From Ianthella basta (lineage: Eukaryota; Porifera; Demospongiae; Verongiida; Ianthellidae), in contig OZ025878.1 in assembly GCA_964019415.1 (NCBI GenBank), forward strand, positions 124,001-188,000: DNA of 64,000 nt, in the 5' to 3' direction. This document shows, one piece after another, positions 20,654 to 60,765 of this stretch. The translations under genes were made by a program, and so were the position numbers. The number at the start of each line of letters is the position of its first letter. The stretch's first letter is position 1. The notes under the pieces were generated by a model that saw only the letters and a program-made list of their open reading frames with translations, was not told where the DNA came from and made no database searches.

Positions 20654-20685
20654 TTTGTTCAAGAAAAATGGCGGAGAGGACACGC
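20640..20685. promoter_or_regulatory. Divergent start region with two TISU/YY1-like ATGs (SRP72-1 / K1)
   Basis: The SRP72 start (minus, ATG 20653-20651, context ACAAAATGGCTGC) and the K1 start (plus, ATG 20668-20670, context AAAAATGGCGGAG) are separated by 14 bp. Both resemble the TISU element (SAASATGGCGGC), which is also a YY1 site and directs both transcription start and translation from very short 5' leaders. The same arrangement is kept at 28227/28242 and 34436/34451. Confidence 0.6.
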
Positions 20686-23219
20686 CCTTCATTTCAAGGA
20701 CTCCGCATCGCGGACCTTGCCTTCACAGACGTAAAGTTGGGCAGAGGAGCCGACGCAACTGTATTTAAGGTGGAATGGAACGGGACTGTGTGCGCCGCAA
20801 AGCGTCTCCATGACATTCTGCTGGAAGACGACTCGCCCGGAGGAGCGGACAAGCTGATTAGCAACTTCGAGGCAGAATGCCTAACTTGGTCGAAGCTGCG
20901 TCATCCAGGAGTTGTCCAGTTCCTTGGAGTGTACTTTGAGCGCAACTCTCGCTTACCAGTTCTGGTCATGGAGAAAATGGACACCAGTCTTCGCAAGTAC
21001 TTGGAGGATCACAGCAAGGAGGAGTTCCCCCTCAACCTCAAAGCTTTCGTCCTCCGTCAGGTGACCCAAGCGCTGGCCTATCTCCAGAGCCAGAACCCGC
21101 CTCTCGTCCATCATGACTTGAGTCCAAACAACGTATTGTTGAACGTGGTCTCTTTCGTGACCAAGGTGAGCGATTTTGGCATGAGTCGAGCCATCAACCC
21201 ATCCGCCCTCAGTCGCAAGTCCTCCATAAAGGGGACGTTGGCATTCATGGCTCCTGAGGCGCTGCAGAAGGTACCAAAGTATGACACCAAGTTGGATGTG
21301 TTCTCCTTTGGCAACATCATCATCTCCACTCTGACCCACGAGTGGCCAGACCCAGAAGCACCGACCAAATATGAAAATGACCAACTTGTTGCTTTGAACG
21401 AGCTCCAGCGTCGTGAGCACTGCACTGAATTGTTCACTTCACAAGAGAAGCAGCTGTTTCTACCCACTGTCAGCCAGTGTCTGGAGAACCGACCAGACAA
21501 GCGTCCCTCCAGTGTGGTGCTGGTGAGAGAGCTGAGACGTATCGAGTCATCCCTCCCAACAGGCAGCCATGTTGCTGCTCCTATTGAGCACCTTCGCCAG
21601 CAGTTGTCAGCCAAGGAGGAAGAATGCAGACAGAAGGATGAGGTGATTGTAGAGAAGGATGAAGTGATTAGGGAGAAGGAGGTGGCATTGAGGGAGAAGG
21701 ATGAGGTGATTAGGGAGAGGGAGGTGGCATTGAGGGAGAAGGATGAGGTAATTAGGGAGAAGGACGTTGCATTGAGGGAGGCCTTGAAGGAGAAGGAGAG
21801 AGCGATGATTGAGAGAGATGTAGCTTTAAGGGACAGAGATGTAGTTTTGAGGGAGAAAGAGGCTGAGCTCCAACATTTGCGACAGTCAGTGAAAGAAAGA
21901 GACAACACCGCTCCAGGGAAGGTGAAGCAGTTGGCAGCAGCTCAAAAGGTGAGCTGTATGCATGTTGGTGGTGTGTGGGTGGGTGTAGTTTGGGATGTGA
22001 ACACTGAAATGTCCCACCTTGGGACACCACCAGTGAGAGGCAGTTCACTGCATGTGGGAACTGGGCAAGTGCTGAATATAGTCATGTTGGGAACACACAC
22101 TGTTGTGTAGTGTTGGGTTAGTGGGCACTGGAAGGGGGTACATTTGCCTCCCTTTGCTTTAATCTCACCCATGCACCCACCCTTGAAAGGACATTTAGCA
22201 AGTCATAGTAATTATATATGTCATTCCCTCCTCCATTTCTGTGAACTTCAATCCCCATTTCTATAGTAGTGTATATATATATATATATATATATATAGTG
22301 TAGCTACATTGTGGAATTAATGGATATAGACCACTTGGTGTGTGTTGGCCCCTCCCTTGACCCCACCCCCTGGTCCAAATTCAACCTGCAGGTGAAGCAC
22401 CCTCTCAGGGACTGGAGGAAACTTGGAGAGTGTAAGAACGTTATCCAACACAGTCCAGTGGGTGGTGTGTATACCGCTGTGGCCATGAACAGTGAGGGCC
22501 TGCTAGCTGTGACAGATGGGGGGAACAACTGTGTTCATCTTCTCACCAAAGAGGGTGCATTGGTGAGGTCCATTGGGAAAGGAGTGGTTGGTGGTAGGTT
22601 GTCTGGTGTAGCATTTGATCTGAGAGGGAATGTTTGGATTGCAGGCTATCGCAACAATAAAGTAGTCAAGCTGTCCCAAGATGGCCGACTCCTTCAGACC
22701 ATACGCCATGCAGGTAGTGAAAGTGATGGTTTGAGCTGTCTTAGTAGTGTGTCTGTTAGCACAGAAGGACTGATCTACATCTGTGATAGTCACAACCACC
22801 GTGTCACTGTTCACGACGAAGACGGCAAGTTTCTGTTTTCTTTTGGCTCAAAAGGAAGTGGCCCAGGGTGTTTTGATTACCCTCGAGACATAGCATTTGG
22901 TTCAGATGGCCTCGTGTATGTTAGTGATAACAACAGTAGGAGAGTTTGTGTGTGGTCTAAAGAAAGCACATTTAAGAGAGATTTTCAGCCCAAGTATGTC
23001 CCTTCCTGCATTGCTGCTACTAGTGACAACCATTTGTTGATCACTTCACACTCTTCCAACACCGTAATGGTATACACACTGGAAGGTGAACTGGTTCATG
23101 AGTTTGGAGGGAAAGGTTCTTATCCAGGGAGGTTTGATGGACCTCGGGGGATATGTGTTAATGACAATGGTTTGGTGTATGTAGTTGATAAGGAGAACAA
23201 GCGTGTGCAGGTTTTCTAA
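20668..23219 (+). CDS. K1: TKL-like kinase - coiled coil - NHL propeller protein
   Basis: Two exons, 20668-21948 and 22392-23219, joined phase 0, 702 residues. I use the ATG in the AAAAATGGCGG context; an upstream in-frame ATG at 20626 would lie inside SRP72. Kinase domain about 15-290: glycine loop LGRGADATVF (third Gly replaced), Lys45 in CAAKRL, catalytic loop HHDLSPNN (Asp150, Asn155; His in place of the Arg of HRD), DFG 169-171, APE 195-197. All catalytic residues are present, so it should be active. Residues about 320-425 are a heptad repeat of the REKDEVI type (coiled coil). Residues 428-702 are NHL repeats, six blades, ending KRVQVF. No signal peptide or membrane span, hence cytosolic. 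Function unknown; the layout recalls TRIM-NHL proteins with a kinase in place of RING/B-box. Reading through the intron stays open to 22110, giving a possible isoform without the propeller. Confidence 0.9.
21636..21780 (+). repeat. Coding 21-bp minisatellite (heptads) in K1
   Basis: Units of 21 bp of the type gattagggagaaggatgagg encode REKDEVI/REKEVAL heptads. Every paralog has the array but with different unit number and order. Confidence 0.85.
22271..22297. repeat. (AT)n tract in K1 intron
   Basis: About 27 bp of TA dinucleotides, shortly before the NHL exon. Confidence 0.95.
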
Positions 23220-23589
23220 CTGTAAACAATGTGTGTTTGTCAGCAACTAGCTGTGTACTTACTTGTTTTCAGTTACTTGCAATTGGTTTTGTAGTTTGTA
23301 TCTGTATTACCTTATAAATCCCTCAAGTGTTATGGCCCATTCCAACTACTGTGATGTGTACAACTCACTTTACATCACTTTAACATTTCCCATGTATTAT
23401 GATAGCTGTGTGTACTGTGTAAACATGTTTTAACCAGTCATGGGCGGAGTTAACTCATTGCCAAATATGGTATGCTGGCATAATCACTTGCCGTGATCAG
23501 TGAAGTGAGTCCCAATCTTGGAGCAGTCCTGTCTCTTTCCTTTCTCTGGTTTGTTTCTTGTCCGATTGTCCACTGCACACTGCAATGGA

Positions 23590-23689
23590 TCATGTGAACA
23601 GCTCCAGTATTGGAATGGTGGATTCTCATGTGATTTCCACCACCATATGTCACATGACAATCCACCATTCCAATACTGTATTCACATGA
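23590..23689. repeat. Foldback repeat after K1
   Basis: Arms of about 40 bp (tcatgtgaa, then cagtattggaatggtggatt and its complement) flank a loop of about 18 bp. One copy follows every NHL exon except K5. Confidence 0.85.
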
Positions 23690-23752
23690 GTGATTGCAAT
23701 ATGTGTGTATTGTGTACAATTGGGACAAGACAGCACACACCACTGGACACAT

Positions 23753-28227: not shown

Positions 28228-28241
28228 TTTGTTCAAGAAAA

Positions 28242-30657
28242 ATGGCGGAGAGGACACGCCCTTCATTTCAAGGACTCCGCATCGCGGACCTTGCCTTCAC
28301 AGACGTAAAGTTGGGCAGAGGAGCCGACGCAACTGTATTTAAGGTGGAATGGAACGGGACTGTGTGCGCTGCAAAGCGTCTCCATGACATTCTGCTGGAA
28401 GACGACTCGCCCGGAGGAGCGGACAAGCTGATTAGCAACTTCGAGGCAGAATGCCTAACTTGGTCGAAGCTGCGTCATCCAGGAGTTGTCCAGTTCCTTG
28501 GAGTGTACTTTGAGCGCAACTCTCGCTTACCAGTTCTGGTCATGGAGAAAATGGACACCAGTCTTCGCAAGTACTTGGAGGATCACAGCAAGGAGCAGTT
28601 CCCCCTCAACCTCAAAGCTTTCGTCCTCCGTCAGGTGACCCAAGCGCTGGCCTATCTCCACAGCCAGAACCCGCCTCTCGTCCACCACGACTTGAGTCCG
28701 AACAACGTATTGTTGAACGTGGTCTCTTTCGTGACCAAGGTGAGCGATTTTGGCATGAGTCGAGCCATCAACCCATCCGCCCTCACTCGCAAGTCCTCCA
28801 TAAAGGGGACGTTGGCATTCATGGCTCCTGAGGCGTTGCAGAAGGTACCAAAGTATGACACCAAGTTGGACGTGTTCTCCTTTGGCAACATCATCATCTC
28901 CACTCTGACCCACGAGTGGCCAGACCCAGAAGCACCGACCAAATATGAAAATGACCAACTTGTTGCTTTGAACGAGCTCCAGCGTCGTGAGCACTGCACT
29001 GAATTGTTCACTGCACAAGAGAAGCAGCTGTTTCTACCCACTGTCAGCCAGTGTCTGGAGAACCGACCAGACAAGCGTCCCTCCAGTGTGATGCTGGTGA
29101 GAGAGCTGAGACGTATCGAGTCATCCCTCCCAACAGGCAGCCATGTTGTTGCTCCTATTGAGCACCTTCGCCAGCAGTTGTCAGCCAAGGAGGAAGAATG
29201 CAGACAGAAGGATGAGGTGATTGTAGAGAAGGATGAAGTGATTAGGGAGAAGGAGGTGGCATTGAGGGAGAAGGATGAGGTGATTAGGGAGAGGGAGGTG
29301 GCATTGAGGGAGAAGGATGAGGTAATTAGGGAGAAGGACGTTGCATTGAGGGAGGCCTTGAAGGAGAAGGAGAGAGCGATGATTGAGAGAGATGTAGCTT
29401 TAAGGGACAGAGATGTAGTTTTGAGGGAGAAAGAGGCTGAGCTCCAACATTTGCGTCAGTCAGTGAAAGAAAGAGACAACACCGCTCCAGGGAAGGTGAA
29501 GCAGTTGGCAGCAGCTCAAAAGGTGAGCTGTATGCATGTTGATGGTGTGTGGGTGGGTGTAGTTTGGGGTGTGAACACTGAAATGTTCCACCTTGGGACA
29601 CCACCAGTGAGAGGCAGTTCACTGCATGTGGGAACTGGGCAAGTGCTGCATATAGTCATGTTGGGAACACACACTGTTGTGTAGTGTTGGGTTAGTGGGC
29701 ACTTCATGCAGTGAAGGGGTACATTTGCCTCCCTTTAGTAGTAGTGTACATTGTGGAGTTAATGGATACCACTTGGTGTATGTTGGCCCCTCCCTTGACC
29801 CCACCCCCTGGTCCTAATTCCACCTGCAGGTGAAGCACCCTCTCAGGGATTGGAGTAAGCTTGGAGAGTGTCAGAAGGTCATCCAACACAGTCCAGAGGG
29901 TGGTGGGTATAGGGCAGTGGCCATGAACAGTGAGGGCCTGCTAGCTGTGACACATGTGATGGGCAAGTGTGTTCATCTTCTCACCAAAGAGGGTGCATTG
30001 GTGAGGTCCATTGGGAAAGGAGTGCTTGGTAGTTGGTTGTTTGGTGTAGCATTTGATTTGAAAGGGAATGTTTGGGTGACAGACTGTTCCAACAATAAAG
30101 TAGTCAAGCTGTCCCAAGATGGCCGACTCCTTCAGACCATATGCCATGCAGGTAGTAAAAGTGATGGTTTGAGCGGTCCTCGTGGTGTGTCCGTTAGCCC
30201 AGAGAGACTGATATACATCTGTGACAGTGGCCACCACCGTGTCACAGTTCACGATGAAGAGGGCAAGTTTCTGTTTGCTTTCGGCTCAAAAGGAAGTGGC
30301 CCAGGGTGTTTTGAGGCACCTCATGACATAGCATTTGGTTCAGATGGCCTCGTGTATGTTAGTGATGATGGGAATAGGAGAGTTTGTGTGTGGTCTAAAG
30401 AAGGCACTTTTAAGAGAGCTTTCCAGCCCAAGTATGCCCCATCCTACATTGCTGCTACTAGTGACAACCATTTGTTGATCACTTCACACTCTTCCAACAT
30501 TGTAATGGTATACACATTGGAAGATGAACTGGTTCATGAGTTTGGAGGGAAAGGTTCTTATCCAGGGAGGTTTGATGGACGTCTGGGGATATGTGTTGAT
30601 GACAATGGTTTGGTGTATGTAACTGATTGTTACAACAAGCGTGTGCAGGTTTTCTAA
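28242..30657 (+). CDS. K2: TKL-like kinase - coiled coil - NHL propeller protein
   Basis: Exons 28242-29522 and 29830-30657, phase 0, 702 residues. The kinase exon is almost identical to K1 (differences include Gln in KEQFPL and His in YLHSQ). HHDLSPNN, DFG and APE motifs are intact. The propeller exon differs much more, with different residues at the start of most blades (for example VTHVMGKC where K1 has VTDGGNNC, and YVTDCYNKR where K1 has YVVDKENKR). Start context and divergent SRP72-2 are as in K1. The intron is only 307 bp. Kinase activity is predicted from the motifs; the ligand or partner of the propeller is unknown. Confidence 0.9.
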
Positions 30658-31707
30658 CTGTATACAATGTGTGTTTGTCAACAACTAGCCGTGTACGTAT
30701 TTGTTTTCAGTTACTTGCAATTGGTTTTGTAGTTTGTATCTGTATTACCTTATAAATCCCTCAAGTGTTATGGCCCATTCCAACTACTGTGATGTGTACA
30801 ACTCATTTTACATCACCTTAACATTTCCCATGTATTATGATTGCCGTGTGTACTGTGTAAACATGTTTTAACCAGTTATGGGCGGAGTTAACTCATTGCC
30901 AAATATGGTATGCCGTCATAATCACTTGTCGTGATCAGTGAAGTGAGTCCCAATCCTGGAGCAGTCCTGTCTCTTTCCTGTCTCTGGTTTGTGTGTTTCT
31001 TATATGATTGTCCACTGCACACTGCAATGGATCATGTGAACAGCTCCAGTATTGGAACGGTGGATTCTCATGTGATTTCCACTACCATATGTCACATGAC
31101 AATCCACCGTTCCAATACTGTATTCACATGAGTGATGGCAATATGTGTGTATTGTGTACAATTGGGACAAGACACCACACACCACTGGACACATGTACCA
31201 GTGTGTTGGGGGCGGGTCCTCTGGGGTCACATGACTAAGGACACCATGCATGAATGCATGTGGTCATAAAATGGCTGCCATTTTGGACAAAATTTAAAGG
31301 AAGGCAGTGCTATATTGTGTAATGGATACAGGTCAGTGTTTGTAACAGGAGAGGGGAGGGGTTTATCTGGATGTAGTTTCCAAACAAAGCATTCTAGCTT
31401 CCTAAGGCTGGGAGGGGGGAGTCTAATCTCTCTTACTACTTTCTCCTTTCCATTTTTATTTGATCGACTGTGTCGTCATAATATAAAATGGAGGAGAGGT
31501 AGCAGTCTGGCTACGCAGACTAAGGGAAGTCTTGGTCTGGCCATCAATAATGTCTCATGAACACCATTACCAGGTGCACAGGTCATGGGTACAACACACA
31601 CATGCACAACAACATGCATACAGCATGCACAAGTGACGTCCATTGCATGAACAAGTTCTGTACAAGCCCATACTCCCTCAGGGGGTACAGTAGTGGGACC
31701 TCATCTT
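30658..31707. other. K2-SRP72-3 spacer
   Basis: Shared kinase 3' flank with a foldback repeat, then DNA shared with 25000-25430. The THAP element is absent: the uninterrupted site is ccactggacacatgtacc at about 31184-31201. I see no gene. Confidence 0.7.
31032..31131. repeat. Foldback repeat after K2
   Basis: Same foldback as after K1. The stem has ggaacggtgg/ccaccgttcc where K1 has ggaatggtgg/ccaccattcc: both arms changed together. Confidence 0.85.
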
Positions 31708-34450: not shown

Positions 34451-36846
34451 ATGGCGGAGAGGACACGCCCTTCATTTCACGGACTCCGCATCGCGGAGCT
34501 TGCGTTCACAGACGTAAAGTTGGGCAGAGGAGCCGACGCAACTGTATTTAAGGTTGATTGGAACGGGACTGTGTGCGCTGCAAAGCGTCTCCATGACATT
34601 CTGCTGGAAGACGACTCGCCCGGAGGAGCGGACAAGCTGATTAGCAACTTCGAGGCAGAGTGCCTAACTTGGTCGAAACTGCGTCATCCAGGAGTTGTCC
34701 AGTTCCTTGGAGTGTACTTGGAGCGCAACTCTCGCTTACCAGTTCTCATCATGGAGAAGATGGACACCAGTCTTCGCACGTACTTGGAGGATCACAGCAA
34801 GGAGGAGTTCCCCCTCAACCTCAAAGCGTTCGTCCTCCGTCAGGTGACCCAAGCGCTGGCCTACCTCCACAGCCAGAACCCGCCTCTCGTCCATCATGAC
34901 TTGAGTCCAAACAACGTGCTGTTGAACGTGATCTCTTTCGTGACCAAGGTGAGCGATTTTGGCATGAGTCGAGCCATCGATCCATCCGCCCTCAGTCGTA
35001 AGACCTCCATAAAGGGCACGTTGGCATTCATGGCTCCTGAGGCTCTGCAGAAGGTGCCAAAGTATGACACCAAGTTGGATGTGTTTTCCTTTGGCAACAT
35101 CATCATCTCCACTCTGACCCACGAGTGGCCAGACCCAGAAGCACCGACCAAATATGAAAATGAGCAACTTGTTGCTTTGAATGAGCTCCAGCGTCGTGAG
35201 CACTGCACTGAATTGTTCACTGCACAAGAGAAGCAGCTGTTTCTACCCACTGTCAGCCAGTGTCTGGAGAACCGACCAGACAAGCGTCCCTCCAGTGTGA
35301 TGTTGGTGAGAGAGCTGAGACGTATCGAGTCATCCCTCCCAACAGGCAGCCATGTTGCTGCTCCTATTGAGCACCTTCGCCAGCAGTTGTCAGCCAAAGA
35401 GGAAGAATGCAGACAGAAGGATGAGGTGATTGTGGAGAAAGATGAAGTGATTAGGAAGAGGGAGGGGGCATTGAGGGAGAAGGATGAGGTGATTAGGGAG
35501 AGAGAGCAGGTAATTAGGGAGAAGGACGTTGCATTGAAGGAAGCCTTGAAGGAGAAGGAAAGAGCAATTATTGAGAGAGATGTAGCATTAAGGGACAGAG
35601 ATGTGGTTTTGAGGGAGAAAGAGGCTGAGCTCCAACATTTGCGGCAGTCACTGAAAGAAAGAGACAACACTGCTCCAGGGAAGGTGAAGCAGTTGGCAGC
35701 AGCTCAAAAGGTGAGCTGTATGCATGTTGATGGTATGTGGGTGGGTGTAGTTTGGGATGTGAACACTGAAATGTCCCACCTTGGGACACCACCAGTGAGA
35801 GGCAGTTCACTGCATGTGTGAACTGGGCAAGTGCTGCATATAGTTGTGTTAGGTTAGTTAGGTTAGTACACTGTTGTGTAGTGTTGGGTTAGTGGTCACT
35901 TCATGCAGTGAAGGGGTACATTTGCCTCCACTAGTAGTGCACATTGTGGAGTTAATGGATACTGTGTGTTGGCCCCTCCCTTGACCCCACCCCCTGGTCC
36001 TAATTCTTCCACCTGCAGGTGAAGCACCCTCTCAGGGACTGGAGGAAGCTTGGAGAGTGTCAGAAGGTCATCCAACACAGTCCAGAGGGTGGTAGGTATA
36101 CCGCTGTGGCCATGAACAGTGAGGGCCTGCTAGCTGTGTTAGATGATTGTAACAACTGTGTTCATTTCCTAACCAAAGAGGGTGCATTGGTGAGGTCTAT
36201 TGGGAAAGGAGTGCTTGGTGGTGTGTTGTATGGTGTAGCATTTAATCTGAGAGGGAATGTTTGGGTGGCAATGTATCACAACAATAAAGTAGTCAAGCTG
36301 TCCCAAGATGGCCGACTCCTTCAGACCATATGTCATGCAGGTAGTGAAGGTGATGGTTTGAGCAGTCCTTGGGATGTGTCTGTTAGCCCAGAAGGACTGA
36401 TTTATATCTGTGACACTGACAACCACCGTGTCACAGTTTACGATGAAGAGGGCAATTTTCTGTTTGCTTTTGGTTCAAAAGGAAATGGCCCAGGGTGTTT
36501 TGAGGCACCTCGTGACATAGCATTTGGTTCAGATGGCCTCGTGTATGGTACTGATGGTGGGAATAAGAGAATTTCTGTGTTGTCTAAAGAAGGCACTTTT
36601 AAGAGATATTTCCAGCCCAAGTATGCCCCTTCCTGCATTGCTGCTACTAGTGACAACCATTTGTTGATCACTTCATACTTCTCCCACATTGTAATGGTAT
36701 ACACATTGGAAGGTAAACTGGTTCATGAGTTTGGAGGGGAAGGTGCTGATCCAGGGAGATTTGATGGGCCTGCGGGAATATGTGTTGATAACAATGGTGT
36801 GGTGTATGTAGCTGATAGAGTGAACAAGCGTGTGCAGGTTTTCTAA
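34451..36846 (+). CDS. K3: TKL-like kinase - coiled coil - NHL propeller protein
   Basis: Exons 34451-35710 and 36019-36846, phase 0, 695 residues; one heptad shorter than K1 and K2. Kinase motifs are intact (GRGADATVF, CAAKRL, HHDLSPNN, DFG, MAPE). The propeller exon has its own variants (VLDDCNNC, AMYHNNKVV, YICDTDNHR, YGTDGGNKR, YVADRVNKR). It is the last gene of the array that has an SRP72 partner upstream. The sequence aagaaaaatggcgg at the start is the same as in K1 and K2. Cytosolic, function unknown. Confidence 0.9.
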
Positions 36847-42300: not shown

Positions 42301-45300
42301 CTGGATCTGGCTCAATCCCTCTAACTTGTGGTGGCAGCCCCAAACCTCAACTCCATACATTAACACAGATTCCACCAAAGACTGCAACAACTGTAGAAAG
42401 GATCTGCCATTCACCTCACCAACTGACTCACGGCAGTTCCGCAGCCAAGTGCCCAAAGCCTGTGAACCTAGCTTCACCCTATGCTCTACCATCTCAGAAC
42501 AGTCTAGGAACTCATCTATCACACATCCTAAGTACTTATAGGAGGAAACCCAAGGGATTTCATTCATACCAATCTTGAAGGTAGCTGCACATCTATCCAC
42601 TCTCTTCTTCCTCATGTGCATCATAGCACTCTTCTCCACATTTATCTCCACAGACCATTCCTCACACCAAGTTTGTAGACACTGCAGGCTCCTCCTCATA
42701 TCTTCTGCATTCTCGGCCAACAAGACTGTGTCATCTGCAAACAGGAGACTAGATACCAGCATTTCACCACATAGCACCCCACAATCACTGCGCTTCAACT
42801 CTGATACTAGACTGTTTATGTAGAGAGAAAACAGGAGTGGGGACAGAACACATCCTTGGCGCAGGCCTCTGGATACTGCAAATTCCTTGCCTAGACGGTT
42901 GTTAATTCTCACCTGAGACATACTGCCATCGTACAACCCTTTCAAAAACATGAGAAAGTGCCCACCAATGCCATACTGACCTAAGCAGTCCCACAACTTC
43001 ATCCTGTCCACCCTATCGTAGGCTTTCCTGAAGTCAATGAAAGCAGCTACCATCCCACTAGACTTCTTGGCAACCATAGACTGTCCAATCAACAATAGAG
43101 ATAGAATTTGGTCCCTGCAACCTCTGCCCCTACGAAAGCCACCTTGCTCATCAGCCAATAGCTCTTTAGCTTCTAAAAAGTCAGCCAGCCGGTTGTTCAA
43201 GACCATACACATGATCTTTCCAACCAAGGATGTCAGGGAGATACCTCTGAAGTTACTGGTGTCACAGGCTCCCTTCACCCTCCCCTTAGGGATTGGCACA
43301 ATGATAGATCGTTTCCAGAAGGAAGGGACAACTCCAAACCTCCAGCAAGCATTAAACAAATGCACCCACACATCCCTTAAAATCTCCACTTCCATCATCT
43401 CAAGAGAAATACCATCTCTACCTGTCGACTTTCTCTTCTTTGCCTTACTCAATGCCCACATCACCTCTTCTCGAGTAATTTCACCTTCCAACTCTGGATT
43501 ATCACTGTCCTGCTCACCCTGAGGTGCCTCACTGCAAACACTACGTCCGGACTTCCCCACCAGTGGCTCCTTACTCCCCTGCAACACTTCCCTGAAGTGT
43601 GCACTCCAGACTTTCACAGCCTCTTCACCGGATTGGATCACACCATTGTTGTCAAGAACTTTGTCAAGATAAGCATCTGATACTTTCCTCTTAACAATGC
43701 CCAGCTTCTTAACTTTCCTCCACCATCTCTTGGGGTTACCCAATAGCTTCTCCAGCCTTAACTGCTGAGACCGAAAGAACTTCCTTTTGGAACTACTAAC
43801 AGCTTTGGCATAAGCTCTTCGACTGGCAACATAATCCATTCTCTTGCACTTCCTTTCCTCTTTATCTTTAGTTCTCAGCCACACACGTTCAGATTGATGG
43901 AATGTCTTCCTCATATTCATCAAATCCTTTGTAAACCACCTATGTTTCTGTCTAGAAGTGCTCAGAGAACGCTTAACTTTATGTAGCCCACTGAACATCA
44001 ACCCAATCAACTGATCATACAAACTATCCAAATGATTCTGGTCACCATCAAAACTATGCAAATTCTCCACAATACTCTCAATATCCCTCTTCTTATCACA
44101 TAGGTAGTCATCCGGGACCACATATCTGAACTCATTACCAGAACATTCACCTGGAGTGTCTTCAGGTTCACTGCCTTGGCATCCAACATCACTATCTAAC
44201 ACTATATCCCATACCAAAGCAGAATGGTCTGGAATTCGTTCAACAATACCATCGGCATGGAATGCCTTGACAAACTCAGTCAAAGATATCACCTTAAAGT
44301 TTGACACAACCCCGAGGTCATCCTTGAACAACAAACAATAGTCCACCACTGAACACCCTTTAGAAGAAATGCAGGTAAAGTCACCACTCCCAGCTCTGCC
44401 ATTGGCCACACAAAGCCCCAATGACCTTGTGAAATCTAGCAACACTCTGCCTTGCTCGTTAATCACCTGGTCTTCTGACTGTCTATCACCTAAAAAAAAA
44501 TATACTGGAACGCGTCCTCAAATAGTTGAAGTTGTAGCTCGCTGGAGCCGCGTCCCACTACACTGTAACTCTCTAGCCGACGTGCAGCTCTGTCACTGGG
44601 CTAAAGTACCTATTTCTGTCTCGCCGCACACCAAAACCCAGAATTCGGAGTACACAACTCCCTGAAGAGGTGGAAAACCTTCTTTCTGAAGAGCAGCATG
44701 CTCCCTTGTCCAAGATCAAAGGAGTTTGTTAACCGCAAACACCTTTCTTGCAATCTGATTGGTCTACTCAAATTTCAGTAGAGATCCCAAGAACATGTCA
44801 AGTCTGACCAGACCCTATTCTAAGCGCGATTGTGCAATAATAGGGGCTGGCGCGCGAGACTACTCATTTATCCCTTCAGCATAATATATATCACTTGCTG
44901 AATGTTGGCCCCTCCCTTGACCCCACCCTCTGGTCCTAATTCCACCTGCAGGTGAAGCACCCTCTCAGGGACTGGAGGAAGCTTGGAGAGTGTCAGAAGG
45001 TCGTTAAACACAGTCCAGTGAGTGGTGGGTATAGAGCAGTCGCTGTGAACAGTGAGGGCCTCCTAGCTGTGACAGATGAGGTGAACAGGTGTGTTCATCT
45101 TCTCACCAAAGAGGGTGCATTGGTGAGGTCCATTGGGAAAGGAATGCTTGGTATTGTGTTGTGTGGTGTTGCATTTGACCTGAAAGGGAATGTTTTGGTG
45201 ATAGACTATTTCAACAATGAAGTAGTCAAGCTGTCCCAAGATGGCCGACTCCTTCAGACTATACGCCATGCAGGTAGTGAAAGAGATCGTTTGAGCGGCC

Positions 45301-45779
45301 CTAATGGTATGACCGTTAGCCCAGAGGGACTGATTTACATCTGTAATTGTGGCCACCACCGTGTCACTGTTCACAACGAAGGGGGCATTTTTCTGTTTCC
45401 TTTTGGCTCTAAAGGAAGTGGCCCAGGGTGTTTTGATAACCCTAGTGACATAGCATTTGGTCCAGATGGCCTCGTGTATGTTACTGATGTTGGGAATAAG
45501 ACAGTTTCTGTGTGGTCTAAAGAAGGCACTTTTAAGAGACACTTTCAGCCCAAGTATGCCCCAACCTGCATTGCTGCTACTAGTGACAACCATTTGTTGA
45601 TCACTTCACACTCTTCCAACATTGTAATGTTACGCGCATCGAAAGGTGAACTGGTTCATGAGTTTGGAGGGAAAGGTTCTCATCCAGGGAGGTTTGATAT
45701 ACCTCTGGGAATATGTGTTGATGACAATGGTGTGGTGTATGTAGCTGATAGTAAGAACTATCGTATGCAGGTTTTCTAA
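39383..45779 (+). CDS. K4: kinase - coiled coil - NHL gene split by a 4.3-kb intron with nested transposons
   Basis: Exon 1 39383-40690 (436 codons) and exon 2 44952-45779 (275 residues), phase 0, 711 residues. The N-terminus is of the second type (MAERTRPSSSRFHELLISNL) shared with K5-K7. Kinase motifs are complete. The coiled coil holds seven or more almost exact REKDEAL heptads, the purest array in the family. The intron grew from about 0.4 to 4.26 kb by insertion of a MULE-like element carrying a LINE in antisense orientation; donor and acceptor are intact. The propeller exon is open, with variants VTDEVNRC, YICNCGHHR and YVADSKNYRM. One oddity is MLRASKGEL where the others have MVYTLEGEL. 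There is no SRP72 partner upstream. If splicing across the large intron fails, read-through gives a propeller-less protein ending at 41059. Confidence 0.87.
40363..40550 (+). repeat. Coding 21-bp minisatellite in K4
   Basis: Seven or more nearly perfect 21-bp units (gaggcattgagggagaagg plus at) encode REKDEAL heptads. The low divergence between units says the expansion is recent. Confidence 0.92.
41007..44862. mobile_element. MULE-like element in K4 intron, interrupted by a LINE
   Basis: Ends are inverted repeats: left TACTCTCACGTGCCAGCCCC, right (complement) TAGTCTCGCGCGCCAGCCCC, continuing with similarity for about 60 bp (GCGCAATCG, AATAGGGTC, AGACTTGAC). Direct repeats CTCATTTAT flank it (40998-41006 and 44863-44871), a 9-bp target duplication. 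Without the LINE it would be about 0.7 kb. The termini resemble the foldback element at 57562-57670. Confidence 0.75.
41345..44500 (-). mobile_element. Non-LTR retrotransposon (LINE) with 980-codon ORF
   Basis: The minus-strand ORF 44466-41524 is uninterrupted. It begins inside the C-terminal part of an apurinic-type endonuclease domain (DFTCISSKGCSVVDYCL and RIPDHSALVW). The reverse transcriptase follows: AAFIDFRKAYDRVDR, GLRQGCVLSPLLFSLYIN, and the catalytic SSLLFADDTVLLAEN. It ends with a Cys-rich CRECQSGKIEDVPHWLLECH motif. The 3' end carries an (AAT)n tail (41345-41365). The endonuclease N-terminus is missing and the open frame starts after a stop at about 44519, so the copy is 5' truncated. 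Clade not certain (CR1/L2/I-like). An intact long frame suggests a recent insertion. It lies inside the MULE-like element. Confidence 0.9.
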
Positions 45780-48550: not shown

Positions 48551-51500
48551 ATGGCGGAGAGGACACGCCCTTCTAGCTCCAGGTTCCACGGACTGCTCAT
48601 CGCCAACCTTGTGTTCAGTGACGTCAAACTGGGCAGAGGAGCCGACGCGACTGTATTTCAGGTGGAATGGAACGGGACTGTGTGCGCCGCAAAGCGTCTC
48701 CATGACATTCTGCTGGAAGACGACTCGCCCGGAGGAGCGGACAAGCTGATCGGCAACTTCGAGGCAGAGTGCCTGACTTGGTCGAAACTACGTCATCCAG
48801 GGGTTGTCCAGTTCCTTGGAGTGCACTTTGAGCGCAGCTCTCGCTTACCAGTTCTGGTCATGGAGAAAATGGACACCAGTCTTCGCACGTACTTGGAGGA
48901 TCACAACAAGGAAGAGTTCCCCCTCAACCTCAAAGCGTTCGTCCTCCGTCAGGTGACTCAAGCGCTGGCCTATCTCCACAGCCAGAATCTGCCTCTCGTC
49001 CATCACGACTTGAGTCCAAACAACGTATTGTTGAACGTGGTCTCTTTCGTGACCAAGGTGAGCGATTTTGGCATGAGTCGAGCCATCAACCCATCCTCCC
49101 TCACTCGCAAGTCCTCCATAAAGGGCACGTTGGCATTCATGGCTCCTGAGGCGTTGCAGAAGGTGCCAAAGTATGACACCAAGTTGGACGTGTTTTCCTT
49201 TGGCAACATCATCATCTCCACTCTGACCCACGAGTGGCCAGACCCAGAAGCACCGACCAAATATGAAAATGAGCAACTTGTTGCTTTGAATGAGCTCCAG
49301 CGTCGTGAGCACTGCACTGAATTGTTCTCTGCACAAGAGAAGCAGCTGTTTCTACCCACTGTCAGCCAGTGTCTGGAGAATCGACCAGACAAGCGTCCCT
49401 CCAGTGTGATGTTGATGAGAGAGCTGAGACATATCGAGTCATCCCTCCCAACAGGCAGCCATGTTGCTGCTCCTCTTGAGCAACTTCACCAGCAGTTGTC
49501 AGCCAAGGAGGAAGAATGCAGACAGAAGGACGAGGTGATTAAGAAGAAGGATAAGGTGATTAAGGAGAGGGAGGAAGCATTGAGGGAGAAGGATGATACA
49601 CTGAGTGTGAAGGATGAGGCATTGAGGGAGAAGGATGATGCACTGAGGGTAAAGGATGAGGCATTGAGAGAGAAGGATGATGCACTGAGGGTGAAGGATG
49701 GGGCATTGAGGGAGAAAGAGGCGGAGCTCCAATGTTTGCGAAATGCAATGATGGAAAGAGACAGCAGCACTCCAGGAATGGGGAAGCAGTTGGCAGCAGC
49801 TCAAAAGGTGAGTTGTGTGCATGTATGCATGTGCAGTATAGTTTGGGGTGTAAATAATATAAATGTCCCACCTTGCAATTGGGACACCATGGCAAGCATG
49901 CATGCAGTGAGAGGCAGTGTACTGTGGGTAGTCTTGTCCCCAGACCCTTCGGCCGAGCAGAGGAAAGGTCTGCATGGTGGCTATGGACATGCACAATGTT
50001 TTGACACAATGCTCTTACAGTTGATGATGCAATCCTGCACAAAATAGTTGCGCATGGTGCAGATTCCACACCATGGCCACGCTGCATTCTGGCTCAGGAG
50101 CTCATGCACAATGAAGGTTGTCAAGGTAGGGATCATGTCCTCACCTTGCCTTGAAAATCAAAAAAAAACAGACAACACAGGTTAGAAATCTGCTTTCTGC
50201 CACCTGTCTGTCAGATGACTGACCAAGACGTCTTTGCCACATGGATGCATGCATGAGCTCTGTCCCTATAGTCTCATCCCTAGACATGCTACTCTATCCC
50301 TGCTTTGTATTGATTCCATGTCCTTAAGGTTCATCCATGCATATGTAGCCTTATAGCTGTTCTATTGATAATGCTTTGCTCACTTCAACTCCACATCTAA
50401 TGCATGTGTTTACTCGACATCAAACTCAAGGTTTCAAGCCGAACTAATTGCACAATAACATCAAACTAGCAATCTGATTGACTTCCATCAGCGGTTACAA
50501 GAACCTATTTTCACCTAACCTTTCCTCCACATGCATGCAATCCAGAAGGATCTGGAGACGACACTATTATTATTATATAGAACTGAATGGGCATGCATGC
50601 ATGCATGTAACACAAACTGTTATAATGTTGTGGGACATTTGTGCCCATTCTTTTAATCTCATGCACCCACCCCTGGATATGTAGCAGGACATAATTAATG
50701 GATATATACCACTTGGTGTATGTTGGCCCCTCCCTTGACCCCATCCCCTGGTCCTAATTCCACCTGCAGGTGAAGCACCCTCTCAGGGACTGGAGGAAGC
50801 TTGGAGAGTGTCAGAAGGTCATCCAACACAGTCCAAAGGGTTCTGAGTATAGGGCTGTGGCTGTGAACAGTGAGGGCCAGCTAGCTGTGACTGATGAGGT
50901 GACCAGGTGTGTTCATCTTCTCACCAAAGAGGGTACGTTGGTGAGGTCCATTGGGAAAGGAATGCTTGGTGGTAGGATGTGTGGTGTTGCATTTGACCTG
51001 AAAGGGAATGTTTGGGTGACAGACTATTCCAACAATAAAGTACTCAAGCTGTCCCAAGATGGCCGACTACTTCAGACCATACGCCATGCAGGTAGTGAAA
51101 GTGATCGGGTGAGCTATCCTACTGGTGTGGCTGTTAACCTGGAAGGTCTGATTTACATCTGTGACCGTGGCCACCACCGTGTCACTGTTCATGATGAAGA
51201 GGGCAAGTTTCTGTTTGCTTTTGGCTTGAAAAGAAGTGGCTCAGAGTGTTTTGATAGCCCTCGTGACATAGCATTTGGTTCAGATGGCCTCGTGTATGTT
51301 AGTGATAATGGGAATAAGAGAGTTGCTGTGTGGTCTAAAGAAGGCACTTTAAAGATAATTTTCTCACCCAAGTATGCCCCAACCTGCATTGCTGCTACTA
51401 GTGACAACCATTTGTTGATCACTTCATTCCTGTCCAACATTGTAATGGTATACACATTGGAAGGTGAACTGGTTCATGAGTTTGGAGGGGAAGGTTCTCA

Positions 51501-51597
51501 TTCAGGGAGGTTTAATGGACCTGATGGGATATGTGTTGATGACAATGGTGTGGTGTATGTAGCTGATAGTAAGAACAAGCGTGTGCAGGTTTTCTAA
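48551..51597 (+). CDS. K5: TKL-like kinase - coiled coil - NHL propeller protein
   Basis: Exons 48551-49807 and 50770-51597, phase 0, 694 residues. Kinase motifs intact (HHDLSPNN, DFG, MAPE). The coiled coil is a 14-residue superrepeat in which REKDDAL and RVKDEAL alternate, unlike any other copy. The 962-bp intron holds a possible small TIR element. The propeller exon has variants such as VTDEVTRC, YICDRGHHR, ITSFLSNIV and YVADSKNKR. Its 3' flank differs from the others: the common foldback repeat is missing and a perfect palindrome is present instead. No SRP72 partner. Confidence 0.9.
49931..50563. mobile_element. Possible TIR element in K5 intron
   Basis: Left end GTCTTGTCCCCAGACCCTTC and the complement of the right end (GTGTCGTCTCCAGATCCTTC) are similar. 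Both lie in intron sequence absent from the other paralogs. No clear target duplication, no coding capacity. Confidence 0.35.
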
Positions 51598-52825: not shown

Positions 52826-55392
52826 ATGGCGGAGAGTACACGCCCTTCTAGCTCCAGGTTCCACGGACTGCTCATCGCCAACCTCGTGTTCAGTGACGTC
52901 AAACTGGGCAGAGGAGCCGACGCAACTGTGTTTAAGGTGGAATGGAATAGGACTGTGTGCGCCGCAAAGCGTCTCCATGACATTCTGCTGGAAGACGACT
53001 CGCCCGGAGGAGCGGACAAGCTGATCGGCAACTTGGAGGCAGAGTGCCTGACTTGGTCGAAGCTGCGTCATCCAGGGGTTATCCAGTTCCTTGGAGTGTA
53101 CTTTGAGCACAATTCTCGCTTACCAGTTCTGGTCATGGAGAAGATGGACACCAGTCTTCGCACGTACTTGGAGGATCACAGCAAGGAGGAGTTCCCCCTC
53201 AACCTCAAAGCGTTCGTCCTCCGTCAGGTGACCCAAGCGCTCGCCTATCTCCACAGCCAGAACCTGCCTCTCGTCCATCACGACTTGAGTCCGAACAACG
53301 TACTGTTGAACGTGGTCTCTTTCGTGACCAAGGTGAGCGATTTTGGCATGAGTCGAGCCATCAACCCATCCGCCCTCACTCGCAAGTCGTCCACAAAGGG
53401 CACGTTGGCATTCATGGCTCCTGAGGTGTTGCAGAAGGTACCAAAGTATGACACCAAGTTGGATGTGTTCTCCTTTGGCAACATCATCATCTCCACTCTG
53501 ACCCACGAGTGGCCAGACCCAGAAGCACCAAACAGATATGAAAATGACCAACTGGTTGCTTTGAATGAACTCCAGCGTCGTGAGCACTGCACTAAATTGT
53601 TCACTTCACAAGAGAAGCAGCTGTTTCTACCCACTGTCAGCCAGTGTCTGGAGAACCGACCAGACAAGCGTCCCTCCAGTGAGATGCTGGTGAGAGAGTT
53701 GAGACGTATCGAGTCATCCCTCCCAACAGGCAGCCATGTTGCTGCTCTTGATGACCACCTTCGCCAGCAGTTGTCAGCGAAAGAGGAAGAATGCAGACAG
53801 AAGGATGAGGTGATTGTGGAGAAGGATCAGGCACTTTGGCACCTGGATAAGGTAATTGGTGAGAAGGAGGTGGAGTTGAGGGAGAAAAATAAGGTAGTTA
53901 GAGAGAGGGAGGATAGGAGATTCCTAAAGCGCTCAGTCTCTCCCTCCTTGTGCAGCTAGCCAATCGCTATTCACTGTCCTGCGCAGTTTTCTTCTGTTCT
54001 TCATTGCTGTTCTTCATTGCTGTTCACGTCCTCTTCACTGTTGAAGCCTATCTTGCCATGCTGCGTCATCAGTAGGTGTACTATCCATAATGCGTGGAAT
54101 GATAGTTGCTGTGTGCAAAGAATTGTGTGTCGCTGTCAACAACAGAAGTGCTTGGCAGGGGCATGCTGGCCTGCCTCTACTGCATGTGACGGCCCCAGCA
54201 CCCACTGTGCCTGTGCAAGACCACTCCACGCCCTATTGTTGTGCTTGTCATGAATACCATTACATATAAAATTGTAGCCGGTAAAAATTCACCAGCCGAG
54301 TGTTCGTGTACATCGCTACATACGTATGTACAGCCCATTTCACCCGTTCACTTCACTAGGTGGGCTCGCTCATGCTCGCCTCATTCATGTCATTATTCGA
54401 TCCTCCACACTATTTCGGGAACCTCAATTTATCTCTCTTCCCCGAAGTGTTGTGTGTAATAGCCTTAGTGCACTAGTAGTGTACATTGTGGAGTTAATGG
54501 ATACCACTTGGTGTATGTTGGCCCCTCCCTTGACCCCACCCCCTGGTCCTAATTCCACCTGCAGATGAAGTACCCTCTCAGGGACTGGAGGAAGCTTGGA
54601 GAGTGTCAGAAGGTCATCAAGCACAGTCTACTTGGTGGTATGTATGCCGCTGTGGCCATGAACAGTGAGGGCCTGCTAGCTGTGACGCATGGGGGGAACA
54701 AGTGTGTTCATCTTCTCACCAAAGAGGGTGCATTGGTGAGGTCCATTGGGGAAGAAACGCATGGTGATATATTGCTTGGTGTAGCATTTGATCTGAAAGG
54801 GAATGTTTTGGTGGCAATGTATTTCAGGAATAAAGTAGTCAAGCTGTCCCAAGATGGCCGACTCCTTCAGACCATATGCCATGCAGGTAGCGAAAGTGAT
54901 GGTTTGAGCGGTCCTCGCGGTGTGTCCGTTAGCGCAGAAGGACTGATTTACATCTGTGACAGTGACAACCACCGTGTCACAGTTTACGATGAAGAAGGCA
55001 AGTTTCTGTTTGCTTTTGGCTCAAAAGGAAGTGGCCCAGGGTGTTTTGAGGCACCTCGTGACATAGCATTTGGTTCAGATGGTCTCGTGTATGTTAGTGA
55101 TAAGGAGAATAGGAGAGTTTGTGTGTGGTCTAAAGAAGGCACTTTTAAGAGATATTTCCAGCCCAAGTATGCCCCAACCTGCATTGCTGCTACTAGTGAC
55201 AACCATTTGTTGATCACTTCATTTGACTCTTGCTTTGTAATGGTATACACATTGGAATGTGAACTGGTTCATGAGTTTGGAGGGGAAGGTGCTGATCCAG
55301 GGAGGTTTAATAGACCTCTAGGTATATGTGTTGATGACAATGGTGTGGTGTATGTAGCTGATTGTTACAACAAGCGTGTGCAGGTTTTCTAA
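52826..55392 (+). CDS. K6: kinase - NHL gene with altered junction, possibly broken
   Basis: Exon 1 starts at 52826 (MAESTRPSSSRFHGLLIANL) with complete kinase motifs. The coiled coil breaks off: after REREDR the sequence leaves the family and stops at 53959, so the usual end (LAAAQK and its GTGAGC donor) is lost. The NHL exon 54565-55392 is fully open, preceded by a normal CTGCAG acceptor, but begins ATG where others have GTG. A possible replacement donor AATAAG|GTAGTT at 53893 would join in phase 0 and give 631 residues; otherwise the gene makes a 377-residue kinase without propeller. About 550 bp of unrelated DNA replaces the original exon end and intron. The propeller carries its own variants (VTHGGNKC, YVSDKENRR, ITSFDSCFV). 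Confidence 0.72.
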
Positions 55393-56905: not shown

Positions 56906-56907
<2 letters not shown>

Positions 56908-57561: not shown

Positions 57562-57670
57562 TAATCTGGTGCGCTAGCCCCAACTTCCTGCCCCCGATTG
57601 CGCGTGGGCCAGAAACTTTCTCGCCCACGCGCAATCGGGGGCAGGAAGTTGGGGCTAGCGCGCCAGACTA
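57562..57670. mobile_element. Foldback MITE with 45-bp arms and 9-bp TSD
   Basis: Arms 57565-57609 and 57623-57667 are complementary except one position, around a 13-bp loop. Direct repeats CAGTACAGC flank it (57553-57561 and 57671-57679). The termini TAATCTGG/TAGTCTGG followed by GCGCTAGCCCC resemble the ends of the K4-intron element, so both probably belong to one MULE-like family. Confidence 0.8.
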
Positions 57671-58069
57671 CAGTACAGCAGTCAACTGGCCAGGTGGTGC
57701 TGTTTGCAGTGCTCTGTGACAATGAGGAATTTACACAATCTGTTAAACACATCTCCTTCACTGGTCCATGCAGTAATGAGCACTGGCTGGAGGCAGAATG
57801 TGTGTAGCTCGCTAGCTATCCATAGCGTTTGCATAGGGGGGGAGGGGCTAGCTAGCTAGCTATGTAGGTCCTCATCACAAGTCATATTTCCATGCTCCAG
57901 TCTATAGCTGTCAGGAGAGAAGAATAGCTGCAACTGCTGTGCATACGGAAATGAAGTCGATCTGCTTTTGGCTGTCTGAATAGCTAGCTAGACCGCGTCC
58001 GATACGTACGTCCAGGGGCACCAGCTGGTGGTCACATGACCAATGACGTAAGGTCGTTTGTTGAAGAAA

Positions 58070-60765
58070 ATGGCGGCAAGGACACGCTCTTCTAGCTCCA
58101 GATTCCACGGACTGCTCATCGCCAACCTTGTGTTCAGTGACGTCAAACTGGGCAGAGGATCCGACGCGACTGTCTTTCAGGTTGATTGGAACGGGACCAC
58201 ATGCGCCGCCAAGCGTCTCCATGACATTCTGCTTGAGGACGACTCACCCGGAGGAGCGGACAAGCTGATCAGCAACTTCGAGGCAGAATGCCTAACGTGG
58301 TTGAAGCTGCGTCATCCAGGGGTTGTCCAGTTCCTTGGAGTGTACTTTGAGCGCAGCTCTCGCTTGCCAGTTCTGGTCATGGAGAAAATGGACACCAGTC
58401 TTCGCACGCACTTGGAGGATCACAGCAAGGAGCAGTTCCCCCTCAGCCTCAAAGCGTTCGTCCTCCGTCAGGTGACCCAAGCGCTGGCCTATCTCCATAG
58501 CCAGAACCCCCCTCTCGTCCATCACGACTTGAGTCCGAACAACGTATTGTTGAACGTGGTCTCTTTCGTGACCAAGGTGAGCGATTTTGGCATGAGTCGA
58601 GCCATCAACCCATCCGCCCTCACTCGCAAGTCCTCCATAAAGGGCACGTTGGCATTCATGGCTCCTGAGGCTCTCCATGATCCTCCTCGGTACAGTGAGA
58701 AGCTAGATGTGTTCTCCTTTGGCAACATCATCCTCTCCACTCTGACCCACGAGTGGCCCAACCCCGGTACCCCCACACTAGTACAAGGAGACCAGATTGT
58801 TGGTCTGAGTGAGCTCCAGCGTCGTGATCGGTATGTTGCAATGTTCACTGCACAAGAGAAGCAGCTGTTTCTACCCACTGTCAGCCAGTGCCTGGAGAAC
58901 CGACCAGACAAGCGTCCCTCCAGTGTGATGTTGGTGAGAGAGCTGAGACGAATCGAGTCATTCCTCCCAACAGGCAGCCATGTTGCTGCTCCTATTGAGC
59001 TACTTCGCCAGCAGTTGTCAGCCAAGGAGGAAGAATGCAGACAGAAGGACGAAGTGATTAGGGAGAGGGAGGAGACATTGTGGGAGGCCTTGAAAGAGAA
59101 GGAAAGGGCAATCATGGAGTTGAGGGAGAAAAATAAGGTAGTTAGAGAGAGTGAGGATGCTTTGAGGGAAAAGGATAAAATAATTAGGGAGAAGGATGAG
59201 GTAATTTGGGAGAAGGACGTTGCATTGAGGGAGGCCTTGAAGGAGAAGGAGAGACCGATGATTGAAAGAGATGTGGCATTAAAGGGCAGAGATGTGGTTT
59301 TGAGGGAGAAAGAGGCTGAGCTCCAACATTTGCAGCAGTCAGTGAAAGAAAGAGACAACACTGCTCCAGGGGAGGTGAAGCAGTTGGCAGCAGCTCAAAA
59401 GGTGAGCTGTATGCATGTTGATGGTGTGTGGGCGGGTGTAGTTTGGGGTGTGAACATTGAAATGTCCCATGCACCTTGGGACACCACCAGTGAGAGGCAG
59501 TTCACTGCATGTGGGAACTGGGCAAGTGCTGCATATAGTTGTGTTAGGTTAGTTAGGTTAGTACACTGTTGTGTAGTGTTGGGTTAGTGGGCACTTCAGT
59601 GAAGTACATTTGCCTCCCTTTACTTTAATCTTTTGCTTTAATCTAACCCATGCACACATCCTTGAAATGATACTTGGCAAGTCATAATAATTATGTCATT
59701 ACTGCATGCATTCCCCCTCCACACTATTCCGGGAACCTCAATTTATCCCCCTCCCCCAAAGTGTTTTCTATAATAGCCTTAGTGTAGTATTTATTTCCCT
59801 GTTTGTGTGGTATAGTAGCTCAGTGTATACTGTATGTGTGTATATAGCATTGTGGAGTTAATGGATACCACTTGGTGTATGTTGGCCCCTCCCTTGACCC
59901 CACCCCCTGGTCCTAATTCCACCTGCAGGTGGAGCACCCTCTCAGGGACTGGAGGAAGCTTGGAGAGTGTCAGAAGGTCATTCAACACAGTCCAGAGGGT
60001 GGTTGGTATAGGGCAGTGGCTGTGAACAGTGAGGGCCTGCTAGCTGTGACAGATGGGGGGAACGATTGTGTTCATCTTCTCACCAAAGAGGGTGCATTGG
60101 TGAGGTCCATTGGGAAAGGAGTATTTCATTTTGTTTTGACTATGTTGTATGGTGTTGCATTTGATCTGAAAGAGAATGTTTGGGTGACAGGCAATTTCAA
60201 CAATAAAGTAGTCAAGCTGTCCCAAGATGGCCAACTCCTTCAGACCAAACACCATGCAGGTAGTGAAAATGATGGTTTGAGCGGTCCTCGCGGTGTGTCC
60301 GTTAGCGCAGAAGGACTGATTTACATCTGTGACAGTGGCAACCACCGTGTCACAGTTCACAACGAAGGGGGCAAGTTTCTGTTTGCTTTCGGCTCAAAAG
60401 GAAGTTACCCAGGGTGTTTTGAGGCACCTCATGACATAGCATTTGGTTCAGATGGCCTCGTGTATGTTATTGATAATGGGAATAGGAGAATTTGTGTGTG
60501 GTCTAAAGAAGGCACTTTTAGAAGAAATTTCCAGACCAAGTATACCCCATCCTGCATTGCTGCTACTAGTGACAACCATTTGTTGATCACTTCATTTGAC
60601 TCCAACATTGTAATGGTATACACATTGGAAGGTGAACTGGTTCATGAGTTTGGAGGGGAAGGTTCTCATCCAGGGAGGTTTGATGGACGTCTGGGGATAT
60701 GTGTTGATGACAATGGTTTGGTGTATGTAGCTGATTGGCAGAACAAGTGTTTGCAGGTTTTCTAA
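58070..60765 (+). CDS. K7: TKL-like kinase - coiled coil - NHL propeller protein
   Basis: Exons 58070-59401 (444 codons) and 59929-60765 (278 residues), phase 0, 722 residues, the longest copy. Start context GAAAATGGCGGCAAGG is the best TISU match of the family. Kinase motifs intact. The C-lobe segment 58671-58843 is strikingly different from all others (ALHDPPRYSEKLDV and GTPTLVQGDQIVGL instead of ALQKVPKYDTKLDV and EAPTKYENDQLVAL), while the DNA on both sides is near-identical. The coiled coil is longer and less regular. The propeller has a three-residue insertion (FHFVLTM region) and variants VTDGGNDC and YVADWQNKCL. It is the last kinase and is followed by the CCDC89-like gene, tail to tail. 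Confidence 0.9.

Follow-up and report, generated by a model that had tools for sequence, protein, structure and literature searches.

Hypervariable propeller receptors have already been described for fungi. The HNWD proteins of Podospora (HET-D, HET-E, and HET-R) are NACHT-WD40 non-self receptors, and the available text of PMC1805685 places positive selection in their WD40 repeats at codons 7 and 9 (d-a loop) and 25 and 27 (b-c turn), in pairs around a constrained residue at the top of the propeller; paralogs also exchange their recognition units, according to the accessible parts of PMC1805685 and PMC2873952. Other relevant propellers are those of the TRIM-NHL proteins (LIN41/TRIM71, Brat, Mei-P26, and Thin), where RNA binding has been located on the charged top surface of the NHL domain (PMC9070667, accessible portion), and that of mycobacterial PknD, which joins a kinase to a six-bladed NHL sensor propeller. 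Coral tachylectin-2 is an animal propeller lectin with positively selected surface sites, but according to the available text these are few, the sugar-binding residues are conserved, and there is no kinase (PMC2880987). Here we analyzed a window of 64,000 nucleotides from the sponge Ianthella basta (assembly GCA_964019415.1, 209 Mb in 96 contigs; contig OZ025878.1, C11 hereafter, positions 124001-188000) that holds seven genes, K1 to K7, each coding for a protein kinase and an NHL propeller. They are probably members of a large family of recognition receptors that act inside the cell and whose hypervariable propellers are exchangeable.

The seven genes lie in one orientation, and each has a kinase exon followed by an NHL exon (coordinates are those of the window):

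20668..21948, plus strand: K1 class A kinase and heptad-repeat exon, 427 aa, donor GTGAGC
22392..23219, plus strand: K1 NHL propeller exon, 275 aa and stop
28242..29522, plus strand: K2 kinase and heptad-repeat exon
29830..30657, plus strand: K2 NHL propeller exon
34451..35710, plus strand: K3 kinase and heptad-repeat exon
36019..36846, plus strand: K3 NHL propeller exon
39383..40690, plus strand: K4 kinase and heptad-repeat exon, with a 21-nt tandem repeat at 40356-40546 (9.1 copies)
44952..45779, plus strand: K4 NHL propeller exon
48551..49807, plus strand: K5 kinase and heptad-repeat exon, with a 21-nt repeat at 49545-49716 (8.2 copies)
50770..51597, plus strand: K5 NHL propeller exon, the reference for numbering (1-275)
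52826..53959, plus strand: K6 kinase exon, early frame end, no shared donor found, probably truncated
54565..55392, plus strand: K6 NHL propeller exon
58070..59401, plus strand: K7 kinase and heptad-repeat exon, its kinase the most diverged of the seven
59929..60765, plus strand: K7 NHL propeller exon, 278 aa

The propeller open frames run somewhat longer (22299-23219, 29818-30657, 36004-36846, 44940-45779, 50758-51597, 54553-55392, and 59917-60765), with CTGCAG directly preceding the NHL exon proper; the exon codes for 275 residues, as the initial annotation had it, or 278 in K7. In K1, K2, K3, K4, K5, and K7 the kinase exon ends in ...AAAQK at a GTGAGC or GTGAGT donor, followed by a phase 0 intron of 443, 307, 308, 4261, 962, and 527 nt, respectively. 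The K6 kinase frame stops early, at 53959, without the shared splice donor, so that six of the seven genes look intact from their sequence. Each unit of the 21-nt repeat behind the K4 and K5 kinases codes for one heptad, and the heptad repeats of the class A genes probably form a coiled coil. The 4261-nt intron of K4 contains an open reading frame (ORF) of 997 aa on the minus strand (41524-44517) that looks reverse transcriptase-like by eye.

Pfam detected in K1 a kinase domain (Pkinase, 118.9 bits) and NHL repeats (PF01436, 103.4 bits, cut-off 20), the latter also in K7 (89.8 bits). An AlphaFold2 model of the K5 propeller, built with the seven window exons as the alignment, has six four-stranded blades (mean predicted local distance difference test score 89.8), and Foldseek matched it to Thin and LIN41 with a template modeling (TM) score of 0.88, to Brat with 0.75, and to PknD with 0.74. 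Behind this same propeller exon type, another kinase is found at C11:205-281 kb (class B, MGALFSRFFAP...), sharing 29% identity over 269 residues with the window type (class A). The catalytic K, HHD, and DFG are present in all 17 class A kinases examined; the class B kinases have K in 9/9, HRD in 8/9 (HCD in one), and DLG in 9/9. By family (PF00069/PF07714) and catalytic residues, both are eukaryotic-type protein kinases and probably active. The closest structures in PDB, all distant, are CTR1, TYK2, WNK, ASK1, and Raf for class A, and an entry named Tyrosine-protein kinase, EGFR, and then IRAK4 for class B.

The first exons of K1 and K7 matched only kinase families in Pfam, with no RING, B-box, or filamin, and these three were also absent from the one class B kinase part scanned. 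No DEATH domain was found in the K1 and K7 frames or in that class B part, unlike IRAK4, and the scan of K1 and K7 found neither NACHT nor WD40, kinase and NHL being the only domains of interest above the cut-offs. The usual hydropathy mark for a 19-residue membrane stretch is 1.6. The highest 19-residue means in the kinase exons of six genes were 0.96-1.57, and the top value overall, 1.89, lies inside the fold of the K4 propeller; no membrane segment is thus apparent between kinase and NHL in these genes by hydropathy scan, no dedicated predictor having been run. It seems plausible that the receptors are cytosolic or otherwise intracellular. In PknD, by contrast, the sensor is extracellular (PMC3140968, accessible portion), and this, together with the large hypervariable family found here, sets the sponge genes apart from PknD, which we compared by its description. 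They share the six-bladed fold and, as shown below, the RNA-contact position types of LIN41 with TRIM-NHL proteins, but with neither RING nor B-box before the NHL domain in K1 and K7 they are not TRIM-NHL proteins.

The variation among propellers is concentrated at four positions per blade, one on each side of the blade proline and the two residues after VxD. In zebrafish LIN41, 14 residues contact RNA (PMC5908797, available text). Of these, R564, R611, Y658, and R752 lie just before the blade proline and W660 and R707 just after it, whereas R581, K628, and F722 are the first residue after the D of VxD and S582, D629, R676, and R770 the second. Thus, 13 of the 14 contacts fall on these four position types, C563 being the sole exception, which supports the initial annotation in placing the variable loops on the face that TRIM-NHL proteins use for binding. 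Applying this contact rule to the six blades gives 24 positions in K5 numbering; the rule is independent of the variability observed here but was chosen after the entropy table had been inspected, the blade proline is replaced in blades 1 and 2 (Y27 and M70), where positions were placed by strand order, and faces were assigned from the strand order of the model and the LIN41 contacts, not from coordinates. The positions are:

50845..50853, plus strand: K5 blade 1, positions 26 and 28 (DA-side variable pair)
50896..50901, plus strand: K5 blade 1, positions 43-44 (BC loop)
50974..50982, plus strand: K5 blade 2, positions 69 and 71
51025..51030, plus strand: K5 blade 2, positions 86-87
51115..51123, plus strand: K5 blade 3, positions 116 and 118
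51166..51171, plus strand: K5 blade 3, positions 133-134
51256..51264, plus strand: K5 blade 4, positions 163 and 165
51307..51312, plus strand: K5 blade 4, positions 180-181
51376..51384, plus strand: K5 blade 5, positions 203 and 205
51427..51432, plus strand: K5 blade 5, positions 220-221
51517..51525, plus strand: K5 blade 6, positions 250 and 252
51568..51573, plus strand: K5 blade 6, positions 267-268

We compared 68 distinct propeller exons, the seven of the window and 61 others, out of 140 found in the genome (four split exons and partial matches were left out); their blades align in register throughout. Mean entropy is 2.84 bits at the 24 positions versus 0.68 at all others (Mann-Whitney p 1.9e-15). 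The 24 account for 21 of the 30 sites with the highest variability, and in the 61 exons from outside the window 19 of the 24 are again among the 24 most variable sites. There are 67 distinct 24-residue signatures among the 68 exons. At these positions arginine (0.109 versus 0.045), tyrosine (0.079 versus 0.029), and tryptophan (0.047 versus 0.012) are enriched and lysine is depleted (0.018 versus 0.058). LIN41 contact residues are mostly identical between species in the portion available of that work; here the same positions are hypervariable between gene copies. The recurrence of variable clusters blade by blade, which had been noticed in the window, is seen in all six blades, and the triplets quoted for K1-K7 in three of them are exact (GGN/VMG/DCN/EVN/EVT/GGN/GGN, SHN/SGH/TDN/CGH/RGH/SDN/SGN, and KEN/CYN/RVN/SKN/SKN/CYN/WQN). 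That the sequence between clusters is almost fixed was overstated: none of the 24 positions is invariant in K1-K7 and 147 of the 251 others are, but the pooled dN/dS (nonsynonymous over synonymous divergence) of the window propellers outside a first list of 28 sites is 0.75.

The codon signature at these positions is one of positive selection. We compared site models M8 and M8a in five arrays, A1 (the window), B1, A2, B2, and A3 (n = 12, 19, 7, and 18 for the last four), with code of our own rather than PAML, FastTree trees, a single branch scale, a short optimization, and 8 beta classes for the window sets or 5 for the others. For the window propellers twice the log-likelihood difference (2dlnL) was 108.7, with omega 7.2 at 10% of sites and 19 sites at P>0.9; the other arrays gave 213.4 (B1), 351.0 (A2), 71.4 (B2), and 256.9 (A3). 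The window kinase domains gave 0.0 and no selected site. By the Nei-Gojobori method over the 21 pairs of K1-K7, mean dN and dS are 0.131 and 0.135 for the propeller (pooled ratio 0.97) and 0.046 and 0.179 for the kinase (pooled ratio 0.26, over about 300 codons with the heptad part left out). In the kinase comparisons class A was represented by 17 genes with a full kinase match and class B by nine of the 12 B1 loci, those with uninterrupted kinase frames. Sites with omega above 1 had been anticipated, and so had their clustering on one face: DA and BC loops, which make up 79 of 275 residues, received 93 of the 132 selected-site calls made in the five arrays; strands received 34, of which 25 fell in strand A, and the 53 residues of AB and CD loops received 5, all of them in AB. 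The 24 positions received 83 of the calls, and 22 of them were called at least once; outside them, sites 23, 68, 124, 197, and 270 were called in three or four arrays. The pN and pS values in the window are 0.477 and 0.275 at the 24 positions, 0.064 and 0.119 in AB loops, and 0.076 and 0.106 in CD loops. There is good support for the pattern of variability, for its one-sided placement, and for a codon signature of selection. The conserved kinase of the initial annotation is borne out by the ratio of 0.26, although the K6 kinase frame is cut short.

Between neighbouring arrays, the two kinase types share the propeller as a cassette. When K2, K5, and K6 were compared with five B1 genes (15 comparisons), the last 64-108 nt of the intron were 92-100% identical, with no further match upstream, and in aligned A (7) and B (9) genes homology ends about 150 nt past the propeller exon. 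In 75-nt windows the cassette flanks are 94-96% identical between A and B genes and the exon itself 84-92%. In K2 the cassette is delimited as follows:

29739..30805, plus strand: K2 cassette (about 1.1 kb), also present in class B genes of the neighbouring array, comprising 91 nt of intron end, the propeller exon, and about 150 nt downstream (end approximate)

That the two kinase types share the propeller has good support for neighbouring arrays and is likely to hold beyond them. When 63 exons labelled by kinase type are placed on a tree, the label switches between A and B 10 times (16.6 on average and 13 at minimum when shuffled; a single transfer would give 1), a count that is only rough because of recombination. 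K1 and one class B gene have an exact common tract of 161 nt from codon 62, covering the blade-2 variable sites, and exact 45-nt sharing covers on average 0.41 of the exon, versus 0.25 with codon order shuffled. The pairwise homoplasy index (PHI) was not significant on all 68 propellers (p=0.29).

In the duplicated units of K1 and K2, a recent pair, the propeller exon differs more than its surroundings. K1-K3 stand head to head with genes that we take to be SRP72-like (for K1 at 20651-20668); if MAAPDH marks their start, the start codons are about 14 nt apart, and a shared promoter is therefore likely. From the SRP72-like gene through kinase, heptads, and intron (the latter gapped), K1 and K2 are 95-100% identical per 200 nt; the propeller exon is 87.5-92% identical, the next 400 nt 94.5-96.5%, then 85%, and then nothing. 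Between the two, dS comes to 0.030 for the kinase, 0.043 and 0.061 for two SRP72-like exons, and 0.119 for the propeller, where dN reaches 0.107 against 0.007 for the kinase. The propeller may have been swapped or diversified anew once the unit had duplicated; alternatively, conversion homogenized the surroundings and spared the exon.

With the K5 propeller as query we found at least 140 propeller exons in the genome (140 of 414 candidates were scored), 61-100% identical, 136 of them undivided and 4 split in two. For the class A kinase there are at least 130 matching exons (130 of 858 candidates scored), and the class B search scored 136 of 872 candidates. The nearest upstream kinase of the 140 propeller exons, taken on the same strand within 7 kb with no propeller exon between from all 130 class A matches and 42 of the 136 class B matches (C11 and C17), is class A for 97, class B for 29, and none found for 14.

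Other gene groups in the genome resemble parts of this family. At C3:9.4-13.4 Mb there are at least 43 kinases 64-73% identical to class B, with no family propeller exon among the matches listed there, and the class B-like kinase chassis on this contig may carry another reader. Single open frames with NHL repeats, many of them about 800 aa long and perhaps TRIM-NHL-like, are found at C15:2.22-2.39 Mb and C16:5.48-6.57 Mb. NACHT domains number at least 102 in the genome (102 of 469 candidates scored), and many of them are clustered on C4, C5, C8, C10, C17, and C18.

The mode of diversification is like that of HNWD, with recurrent selected top-face positions (the face given by strand order and LIN41 contacts) and exchange between paralogs. 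The proteins themselves are not HNWD-type NOD-like receptors (NLRs), since they have NHL in place of WD40 and a kinase in place of NACHT; moreover, single HNWD repeats recombine across places and genes, whereas here the six blades are distinct and keep their register, and what genes share is whole cassettes or patches. In architecture, a protein kinase (with heptad repeats in class A) is linked across one phase 0 intron to a propeller of six NHL blades. About 24 residues ringing the top, two flanking the strand-A proline and two after strand B in each blade, would be the ligand-reading surface, which selection would make different from gene to gene. Point changes would create diversity, together with gene conversion or recombination acting on the cassette and on internal patches, also between kinase types. 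The heptads could let receptors cluster, so that ligand binding would lead to clustering and this would turn the kinase on. Ligand binding, a continuous rim, activation by clustering, and the intracellular location are what we infer, and an immune or self/non-self role would be their likeliest meaning.

Relaxed constraint or local hypermutation, with tandem duplicates decaying at their loops or a mutator targeting the variable codons, would also produce clustered change, and silent sites give it some footing. Within two codons of the 24 positions the window has a fourfold divergence of 0.17-0.21, which drops to 0.01-0.08 at greater distance; the near/far ratio is 4.2 in the window and 2.5, 1.7, 1.3, and 1.6 in the other arrays, with two of the five intervals clear of 1. 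Part of the divergence is therefore regional. For codons at least four away from the 24, the ratio of dN to fourfold divergence reaches 1.36 in the window, compared with 0.66-0.77 for A2, A3, B1, and B2, so by that measure the young window copies show little framework constraint. The window ratio of 0.75 outside the first 28 sites likewise speaks for this explanation. However, in each of the five arrays the 24 positions have a dN of 3.3-4.0 times the local fourfold divergence (lower 95% bounds 1.9-2.6) and 4.7 to 14.1 times that of distant silent sites, codon positions 1, 2, and 3 in the window differ at 0.49, 0.50, and 0.31, that is, more at the first two than at the third, AB and CD loops remain conserved, and 135 of the 140 exons are free of stops. 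A candidate mutator of the diversity-generating retroelement type, targeting adenines, left no consistent signature: silent pairs that contain an A show an excess near the 24 in A1 and B2 but none in the other three arrays. We thus regard decay or hypermutation as a highly improbable explanation. For the raised silent blocks themselves we tentatively favor old variants kept by selection in a framework homogenized by conversion; a locally higher mutation rate fits as well.

That the genes are subfunctionalized regulators, each propeller reading a different endogenous RNA or substrate for the kinase to modify and with no immune or self role, seems improbable to us too. The variable positions are those that LIN41 uses for RNA, and R, Y, and W are enriched there, but the depletion of lysine is unlike a basic RNA pocket, and the propeller turnover between K1 and K2, the near absence of repeated signatures, and a propeller common to two kinases are more in keeping with an arms race than with fixed endogenous targets. 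Allorecognition rather than pathogen sensing would have the propellers read polymorphic self proteins upon contact between cells of two individuals, in the way that HET-D and HET-E act with HET-C; this is unlikely, if less so. The position pattern is near the selected HNWD codons reported in the available text of PMC1805685, yet the proteins look intracellular, and on one genome this role is inseparable from an immune one.

Besides the behavior of the silent sites and the lax window framework, several observations weigh against a family of selected recognition receptors with an exchangeable propeller. Stops interrupt 5 of the 140 propeller exons, K6 is probably truncated, and 3 of the 12 B1 kinase frames are interrupted. 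The kinase control is not clean: nine class B kinases gave a weak signal, 2dlnL 16.1 with omega 1.9 and 24 spread sites. Position 124, called in three arrays, lies on the opposite (AB) side. Recombination is present, with PHI at p=0.002 in the propellers of the window, in those of B1, and in both sets of kinases, and site models on a single tree can overcall under it. We did not find the shared intron end in any of four class A genes at a greater distance, or in a class B gene of another type at 279.7 kb; cassette borders are therefore shown only between neighbouring arrays, and this, together with the weak constraint on the window framework, slightly tempers our confidence in the receptor reading.

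The window also contains copies of a gene that we take to be an ADAM-like metalloprotease (565-7321 on the minus strand and 13260-16853 on the plus strand), two of them with HELGHNFGSNHD and one on the strand opposite to the others. An ORF of 602 aa at 10134-11942 on the minus strand is presumably NADPH oxidase-like, and a similar fragment lies at 8643-9068.

A literature search on kinase-NHL proteins, sponge and invertebrate repertoires, and hypervariable propellers gave no animal kinase-NHL family among the matches listed, most subscription papers being outside its coverage. In the accessible text of a paper on sponge immunity NHL is mentioned once, in a figure legend (PMC8242945), and the available part of one on sponge NLRs does not mention it (PMC12909245). 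We propose only tentatively, and at slightly less than an even chance, that this is a previously undescribed animal system, in which more than 100 germline intracellular kinase receptors use one NHL cassette with about 24 contact residues, passed by conversion between at least two distant kinase chassis. The claim is directly testable, since the 24 positions predict which residues decide specificity. If it is true, recognition and signalling modules would evolve separately here, like variable and constant segments, and an animal lineage would have built a broad intracellular repertoire on the face of a propeller and not on leucine-rich repeats or immunoglobulin domains.

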